Source: Candidatus Kaiserbacteria bacterium CG10_big_fil_rev_8_21_14_0_10_56_12 (GTDB taxonomy: Bacteria; Patescibacteriota; Minisyncoccia; Phycocordibacterales; Phycocordibacteraceae). From it: a stretch of 47,220 bases of DNA. Both the position numbers and the translations under genes were made by a program. Within the stretch, counting starts at the first letter, position 1. Each line of letters starts with the position of its first letter. The notes under the pieces were generated by a model. The model saw only the letters and a list, made by a program, of their open reading frames with translations, had not been told where the DNA came from and did no database searches. The DNA lies in the NCBI GenBank assembly GCA_002773355.1, contig PFBL01000020.1:1-47220 (forward strand), written 5' to 3'. Of this stretch, positions 29,577-31,472 are shown one piece after another.

Positions 29577-29763
29577 AAAAAAGGCCTGCCGTAGGGGCAG
29601 ACCGCGAGGTAGTGCACAGAGGGTTGCGCAAATGCTGTAGAGCAAGGCTTGCGGGCGCTCTACAACATTCACTCTGTGCACCACCTGACGCCAACGTACA
29701 ACAGTACGAGCTAATTTGCAACTCAAACGATTCGGCGGTGGGGTCTGCTTGCGCAAGCGTGAG
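29577..29763 (-). ncRNA. Candidate structured RNA 1 of the tandem RNA locus
   Basis: On the minus strand a perfect TATAAT (29770-29775) precedes a ~187-nt stretch without a convincing reading frame. The stretch has a 14-bp stem (29672-29685 with 29608-29621), then a 13-bp stem (29657-29669 with 29631-29643) stacked on it across an asymmetric internal loop. It ends in a terminator hairpin (29583-29603, GGTCTGCC/GGCAGGCC) and TTTTTT. A long rod with an internal bulge recalls 6S RNA, but I cannot confirm that family. Confidence 0.6.
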
Positions 29764-29780
29764 CCGCGAATTATACCGGA

Positions 29781-29960
29781 AAAGAAAAGGCCCACGCGAC
29801 GTGCGGGCCGAGAGAGTCGCGAGATGGATGCCATGATGGTCTATCCGGGTTCGCCGACTGGCTGGCGTGCCAGCCGGCGGGACACTAACCTCCCTCTCGC
29901 GACTCGTGAGCACTCTACGCCACGTGCTCTCGCTCCGCAATGTGCGTGGGCCGAAACTGT
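29781..29960 (-). ncRNA. Candidate structured RNA 2 of the tandem RNA locus
   Basis: The minus-strand segment is closed by a perfect 9-bp stem GGCCCACGC / GCGTGGGCC (29944-29952 with 29789-29797). Inside are a 6-bp hairpin GAGCAC/GTGCTC (29908-29929), an 11-bp stem (29895-29905 with 29814-29824) and an apical GGCTGGC/GCCAGCC hairpin. The 3' arm can also pair locally as a terminator hairpin followed by TTTTCTTTT. A TAGAGC -10-like hexamer lies just upstream. No family is recognised. Confidence 0.55.
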
Positions 29961-29969
29961 GAGCTCTAC

Positions 29970-30125
29970 AAAAAGAAAGATCCGCCGAGGGCAGATCTTG
30001 TAGGGGCGGTGGTGGTGCCGTCTGAGCACAGTCCGGACAAATAACAAATAGCGTCGCGGAGTAGCATTTCGCCGCCGAGGGGTATGGGGCCCCTTCACGG
30101 CCTCTCTCGTGCACCACCACCGCCA
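29970..30125 (-). ncRNA. Candidate structured RNA 3 of the tandem RNA locus
   Basis: The expected transcript start (~30125) coincides with the first base of a perfect 14-bp closing stem, GGCGGTGGTGGTGC (30111-30124) with its complement (30005-30018). The ~90 nt inside include an AGGGG/CCCCT hairpin flanked by GCCG/CGGC. A 9-bp terminator hairpin (29978-29998) and TTTCTTTTT end it. Promoter, closed structure and terminator fit together, making it the best-supported RNA of the three. It might be a 6S-like RNA or something new. Confidence 0.65.
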
Positions 30126-30131
30126 GGCAAT

Positions 30132-30160
30132 ACTCTACACGATCTCCGCCCGCTCTGCAA
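30132..30160 (-). promoter_or_regulatory. Promoter of structured RNA 3
   Basis: TTGCAG (30155-30160) and TAGAGT (30132-30137) on the minus strand are 17 bp apart. The start point would be the first base of the 14-bp closing stem. The -35 directly abuts the glyA stop codon. Confidence 0.55.
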
Positions 30161-31417
30161 CTAGAACCTCTCGTGGATCGGGTGGGCGCGCGCGATAGCA
30201 ATCACCTCCTCCTTGGCGCGCGGCGGCGGCGTCTTCTTGGTGAGCACCTCGAGCATGAGCTCTGCGACTCGACGCGAGTCGGCCTCCGTAAGCCCCCGCG
30301 TAGTCATCGCGGGCGTGCCGAAGCGGATCCCTGACGGGTCCATGGGCCTGCGCGGGTCGTTGGCAATCATATTTTTATTCAAAGTGATCCCCGCTTCGTC
30401 GAGCAGTTTCTCTGCCTCATCTCCGGTTACTCCAAGCGAGCCATACACATCGGCCAAGATGAGGTGATTGCTTGTCCCGCCGGTAATCATACGCACGTTG
30501 CCCGCCTTATACACGTCTGCCATCGCGGCGGCGTTAGCTACGACTTGGCTCGCATACGTCTTAAACGATGGCTGTAACGCCTCCTTGAAGCTCACGGCCT
30601 TGGCCGCGATCTGGTGCATGTGTGGCCCGCCCTGGAGGCCCGGGAAGAGCGTCTTGTCGATTCGCTTAGCAAGGTCCTCGGAGTCGCGGGTGAGGATCAT
30701 CCCGCCGCGCGGGCCGCGCAGGGTCTTGTGCGTCGTGGTGGTCATGAGATCGAAGCCGTAGTCGAACGGATTCTTCGCCGCGCCGCCCGCGATAAGGCCC
30801 GCGATGTGTGCGATATCCATCACCGCGACCGCCCCCACCTCGCGCGCGATATCGACAAACTTCGCGTAGTCGAGCTCACGCGGATACGCTGAGTAGCCCG
30901 CGAGGACAATCTTAGGCTTGATCTCCTTGGCCGTCTTGCGCATCTGGTCATAGTCGATCTCGCCGGTCTCGATGTCCTTCATCTTGTAGCGGACGAAGTT
31001 GAAGATCTTGGTGAGGTAGGTCACCGGGTGGCCGTGCGTGAGGTGCCCGCCGTGGCTGAGATCCATACCGAGGATCGTGTCGCCCGGCTCGAGGAGCGCG
31101 AAGTACATCGCGATGTTCGCATTGGCGCCACCCAAGGGCTGGACGTTTGCATACACGGCATTGAAGAGCCTCTTCGCGCGGTCGATTGCAAGCACCTCCA
31201 CCTTGTCAGTGAACTCTTGGCCGCCGTAGTAGCGCTTGCCCGGATAGCCCTCGGAGTATTTATTGGTGAGCGAGGAGGCCATGGCCTCCTTAACCGCGCG
31301 TGAGACATAGTTCTCGCTCGGTATCAGCTCGAGGCCATCGGCCTCGCGCTTGTCCTCGCCCACAAGAGCCTCATATATCTCAGTATCTTGTTCGTATATG
31401 TGTGAGTAGAAATCCAT
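30161..31417 (-). CDS. glyA: Serine hydroxymethyltransferase
   Basis: The 418-aa PLP enzyme has LELIPSENYVSRAVKEAMAS, YPGKRYYGGQEFTDKVEVLA, the PLP-lysine motif TTTTHKTLRGPRGGMIL, and RFGTPAMTTRGLTEAD. It makes glycine and 5,10-methylene-tetrahydrofolate from serine, the methyl donor for ThyA, encoded divergently 56 bp away. I choose MDFYSHIYEQD (31417) as the start. A -10-like TACAAT (31435-31440) leaves no room for the upstream in-frame codon. The gene is followed at once by the promoter of structured RNA 3. Confidence 0.97.
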   Translation of the reverse strand: MDFYSHIYEQDTEIYEALVGEDKREADGLELIPSENYVSRAVKEAMASSLTNKYSEGYPGKRYYGGQEFTDKVEVLAIDRAKRLFNAVYANVQPLGGANANIAMYFALLEPGDTILGMDLSHGGHLTHGHPVTYLTKIFNFVRYKMKDIETGEIDYDQMRKTAKEIKPKIVLAGYSAYPRELDYAKFVDIAREVGAVAVMDIAHIAGLIAGGAAKNPFDYGFDLMTTTTHKTLRGPRGGMILTRDSEDLAKRIDKTLFPGLQGGPHMHQIAAKAVSFKEALQPSFKTYASQVVANAAAMADVYKAGNVRMITGGTSNHLILADVYGSLGVTGDEAEKLLDEAGITLNKNMIANDPRRPMDPSGIRFGTPAMTTRGLTEADSRRVAELMLEVLTKKTPPPRAKEEVIAIARAHPIHERF

Positions 31418-31472
31418 CGTGAGGGTATAGGTCGATTGTATCACCAGAGAGCAAATAGAGTATCATGGGATC

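Follow-up and report, generated by a model that had tools for sequence, protein, structure and literature searches.

Orphan intergenic small RNAs of bacteria that end at intrinsic terminators combine a promoter, a structured body and a U-run terminator, and are lineage-specific. 6S RNA (RF00013) is a small stand-alone RNA with its own promoter and with ends sealed by a helix, and Y RNAs follow a plan in which an end helix is kept and the interior varies. The locus analysed here holds three structured modules, termed M1, M2 and M3, that resemble each of these systems in part. They have the promoter, structured body, U-run terminator and lineage-specific occurrence of orphan intergenic small RNAs, but differ from them in an unusually long end-sealing helix that begins at the predicted first base, and in forming three diverged tandem copies with almost no interior conservation. 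They are like 6S RNA in being putative small stand-alone RNAs with helix-sealed ends and promoters of their own, but match it neither in sequence nor by covariance model, and the predicted folds of M1 and M2 show no two-sided central bubble. To Y RNAs (YrlA and others) the modules are alike in the end helix and the variable interior, whereas a tRNA-like part was not noted in the modules.

Three tandem modules downstream of glyA

The window (the whole 47-kb stretch of DNA that was analysed) corresponds to contig C13 in a genome of 632 kb that is rated 97% complete; the nearest public relatives of this genome bear the labels Kaiserbacteria and other Patescibacteria. Between glyA (30161-31444, minus strand), the upstream anchor gene, and a gene for an AbrB/MazE-type DNA-binding protein (PF04014; 29336-29524, minus strand), three units follow in the series M3, M2, M1, all on the minus strand. 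This agrees with the initial annotation, which had placed three tandem structured RNA modules here and had given each a long stem and its own U-run terminator; in each, a closing helix of about 14 bp precedes an intrinsic terminator. M3 (29977-30124, minus strand) is made up of a perfect 14-bp closing helix (30111-30124 with 30005-30018), a 92-nt interior and a terminator at 29977-29999. M2 (29789-29905, minus strand) is closed by a helix of about 14 bp that contains one mismatch (29892-29905 with 29814-29827), and has an inner hairpin and a terminator at 29789-29809. M1 (29583-29686, minus strand) is a rod in which a 15-bp closing helix with one G-U pair (29672-29686 with 29607-29621) is followed by a 7-nt bulge on the 3' side, a 13-bp inner stem and a terminator at 29583-29603. 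A longer alternative M2 (29789-29952, minus strand) has outer 26-nt arms (29927-29952 and 29789-29814) that are 77% complementary, and could enclose the M2 promoter region if transcription began upstream.

A promoter of the form TTGCRR-N17-TANNNT, 6-7 nt before the helix, is common to all three modules, and this shared spacing would place the first helix base at or next to the expected transcription start. In M3 it reads TTGCAG-N17-TAGAGT (30132-30160, minus strand), directly after the glyA stop codon and 7 nt before the helix, just as the initial annotation had described it with its 17-bp spacing and a start at the 14-bp stem; this placement is repeated in three loci of relatives (L034, L035 and L159). 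The promoters of M2 (TTGCGG-N17-TAGAGT, 29912-29940, minus strand) and M1 (TTGCAA-N17-TACGTT, 29693-29721, minus strand) are of the same type and had been overlooked. A perfect TATAAT had been assigned to M1 instead. The motif exists, as a second -10 of M1 at 29773-29778 on the minus strand, but by eye no TTG-type -35 is seen at 17 bp from it, and the TTGCAA-17-TACGTT site is the better placed candidate for the M1 promoter.

We scanned the 47-kb window for a terminator preceded immediately by a long helix; the promoter was not among the criteria. The scanner returned the three modules and one unrelated place, and only in the modules was the helix preceded, at 6-7 nt, by the promoter. About 0.06% of window positions have a promoter of this form 4-8 nt upstream of them, a figure for a pattern that was chosen after the modules had been seen and that afterwards recurred in relatives. 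Of 3000 dinucleotide shuffles made from the region, one gave a comparable combination of helix and terminator, and none had the promoter as well. Terminator-like sites in a 1.6-kb stretch, with both strands scanned, numbered four against 1.2 expected, and three of the four are the module terminators. Folding z-scores against shuffles, calculated for the RNAs without their terminators, were -5.1 for M3, -5.9 for M2 and -7.6 for M1. The M3 value changed to +0.46 once the 3' arm was truncated, indicating that the folding excess sits in the closing helix; the M3 interior is weakly structured.

Codon scores were negative in all frames of the modules, as compared with +0.2 to +0.5 for the training genes, and a chance 226-aa open reading frame across all modules had no Pfam hit. 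On these two grounds a protein-coding reading of that frame was dropped, and the absence of coding potential that had been claimed for the locus was borne out. At the sequence level, each module has the promoter of its own, the non-coding body and the intrinsic terminator of a stand-alone intergenic small RNA gene.

Known RNA families and a 6S-like RNA elsewhere in the genome

An Rfam search of the modules, a check suggested in the initial annotation, matched no family: nothing reached gathering thresholds, the only matches were chance ones at E 2.5 and 7.6, and none of the cis-regulatory (riboswitch or leader) families matched. The modules had also been judged by eye to match neither tmRNA, RNase P RNA nor SRP RNA, and the model searches agree. 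The tmRNA and RNase P RNA genes were found on C20 and C18, respectively, rather than at this locus, and a search of the modules up to E 10 found no SRP RNA (RF00169). The other housekeeping RNAs of the genome, as far as found, lie away from the modules. The locus analysis supports a reading as three tandem, putatively structured non-coding RNAs outside Rfam. As a separate observation, RF00169 was not found in the whole genome at E<=1e-3; at 97% completeness, SRP RNA is either missing from the assembly or diverged.

It had further been suggested that one of the modules may be 6S RNA. This was not supported: no module matched the Rfam 6S family even at E<=10, and RF00013 found nothing in the genome at E<=1. 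Weak, sub-threshold Rfam 6S matches were obtained in two relatives (G002, 35.1 bits; G035, 29.6 bits), where they lie between ndk and a metallo-beta-lactamase-fold gene, both named from sequence by eye. This ndk locus has a conserved 6S-like RNA in at least 10 genomes of the genus; loci that hold it include L142, L144-L148, L150, L152 and L153. The RNA has an invariant ACGCAACT ... AGTTGC pairing. Its RF00013 score falls below threshold in G002 and G035, and in the others RF00013 finds it more weakly or not at all. From the sub-threshold Rfam scores and its shape, this genus RNA is likely to be 6S. A model of it (R2), built from nine genomes with the copy of the window's own genome left out, scored that copy at 115.7 bits (L149 1291-1445, about C10:51104-51258, plus strand), whereas the same copy did not reach E 10 against Rfam. 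The modules scored at most 4.5 bits against R2 with filters off, and their predicted folds show one-sided 3' bulges in M1 and M2. Rfam, the genus model and the genome's own 6S-like copy on C10 all speak against 6S RNA for the modules.

Counterparts between glyA and argS in relatives

BLAST searches with the 584-bp region found no match in the genomes of 99 relatives, nor in phages and plasmids. Searching by the frame of the modules (promoter, helix at +1, terminator) did reach relatives where BLAST over the 99 genomes had reached none. One RNA of the module design lies between glyA and argS in each of three other species, G040 (L034), G029 (L035/L007) and G023 (L038/L006), with TTGCAR, a 16-17 bp spacer, TANNNT, a helix of 12-18 bp and a terminator. 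The sequences of these RNAs are largely unlike the modules, but promoter, helix and terminator are alike. A frame scan of 0.99 Mb of loci gave further TTGCR-promoter matches only in these same species, all of them between glyA and argS, and none in shuffled sequence. The -35 begins at the first base past the glyA stop in the window's genome, G040 and G029; in G023, glyA extends further and ends in a stop that overlaps the -10. TTGCGT-16-TACACT and a terminator occur at the same spot in a fifth species (G048, L159), where the RNA fold is not significant (z 0.13).

When the six RNAs are aligned, 13 of the 14 pairs of the closing helix have changes on both sides, and 98% of its cells are paired, as opposed to 43-54% when the alignment is slid; the alignment was fitted to the helix by hand, and the covariation is therefore partly by construction. 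The stronger argument is that the RNAs of G040, G029 and G023 were picked first by position, yet have the helix. The 5' arms of M3 and M1 have GGTGGTGCAC (10 nt) in common, an agreement equalled in 4 of 300 shuffles, and the M2 arm by eye resembles those of G023 and G029. These similarities are consistent with tandem duplication and divergence.

We also built a model (R1) of the module-type RNAs, which scored M3 at 60.1, M2 at 61.2 and M1 at 56.9 bits, all three being training members. Apart from G040, which repeats the L034 sequence, a search of 99 genomes with R1 recovered known carriers only; the search was insensitive, missing G029 from its own training set, so that carriers may exist elsewhere. 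Weak R1 matches in seven genomes (G012, G055, G061, G063, G080, G083 and G092) gave no helix-terminator unit on scanning, and no further member appeared in the window's own genome at E<=1 among the 150 of 183 candidates scored. Most relatives are without such an RNA at this position, including L032, the nearest by GlyA. On a GlyA tree with many weak forks and without the G023 row, the carriers occur scattered. This scatter suggests that losses, or spread, must be frequent, and together with the many relatives lacking the RNA it indicates that the RNA is not essential.

Possible roles of the modules

The modules have a predicted promoter, helix and terminator at a shared position, and neither coding signal nor Rfam match. 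We infer that they are transcribed and stable and act in trans. More specifically, we propose, at about even confidence, that they belong to a lineage-specific family of stand-alone, stable, trans-acting small RNAs, represented by three diverged paralogs in tandem at this locus and by one copy apiece in relatives. Transcription of each RNA would begin at the first base of its closing helix or at a neighbouring base, so that the 5' end would be sealed as soon as the RNA is made, and the intrinsic terminator immediately after the 3' arm would end transcription. Action in trans would then come about through exposed interior stretches that pair with targets, or through a helix that binds a protein. 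Trans action is suggested by a frame (TTGCR -35, helix, terminator) that persists through nearly unrestrained change in sequence and interior. The main weakness of this proposal is that the interior has no conserved motif of the kind that a target or protein would fix.

A rather improbable alternative is that the modules are elaborate 3' ends in cis, which terminate glyA transcription and insulate the next genes while the RNA itself has no role. M3 does stand directly after the glyA stop with a terminator, and in every carrier the RNAs sit between two genes of the same direction. A terminator, however, would need neither a promoter for each module nor a helix at the expected start point, and in many relatives a few tens of bp separate glyA from argS, with no unit of promoter, helix and terminator between them. 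Three copies with promoters of their own make little sense as a terminator, which favours a stable, trans-acting RNA. It is very unlikely that this RNA would be a second 6S-type RNA that has diverged and binds RNA polymerase, in the manner of 6S-2 beside 6S-1 in Bacillus. The rod shape, the closing helix from the first base, the promoter and terminator, and a 3'-side bulge beside the closing helix in M1, M2 and the G040 RNA would fit such a role; the Rfam and R2 results, and predicted folds of M1 and M2 that show no two-sided bubble, speak against it.

We give similarly little credence to a role within a protein complex, for example as a Y-RNA-like ligand of a Ro/TROVE protein with the end helix bound and the interior free: in the modules the helix is constant and the interior varies, as in Y RNAs, but the helix carries no conserved motif. 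Inverted arms and a sporadic distribution on the GlyA tree could also point to remnants of small, MITE-like mobile elements with inverted ends, and the spacer gains other insertions in relatives as well. This origin seems hardly probable, given that the region has one match in its own genome and none in phages or plasmids, that the arms differ among M1, M2 and M3, and that promoter and terminator are kept.

Within the proposal of trans-acting RNAs, a doubtful further step is that selection acts on the promoter and the end-sealing helix while the interior is exchanged almost freely and the unit is copied in tandem, which would yield one frame with a different interior in each species and copy. 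Were they transcribed, three RNAs in tandem would mean a considerable non-coding outlay for a 0.63-Mb genome, and a constant frame around a rapidly diverging interior would account for such genes escaping both sequence searches and Rfam. A brief literature search turned up no study of small RNAs in candidate-phyla-radiation bacteria.

The glyA-argS spacer seems to be a favoured site for small insertions. In the window it also holds a Trp-repressor-family gene (PF01371; 28716-29153). Trp-repressor-like genes occur in this spacer in some relatives too (L110, L157, L165), and some such genes adjoin a palindrome such as GGTATGATATATCATACC. In G007 (L025 1069-1412), glyA and argS are separated by about 340 nt that match nothing in Rfam and whose end resembles a terminator. 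Just past glyA, L036/L037 carry a small insertion with inverted ends (CGTTAGATA...TATCTAACG); it lies between repeated GGTACACTC or a near copy and, by eye, resembles a very small element that duplicated its target. Positions 1-2882 of the window match 23S rRNA (model positions 1-2487 of 2925), the match being cut off where the window, and with it contig C13, begins.
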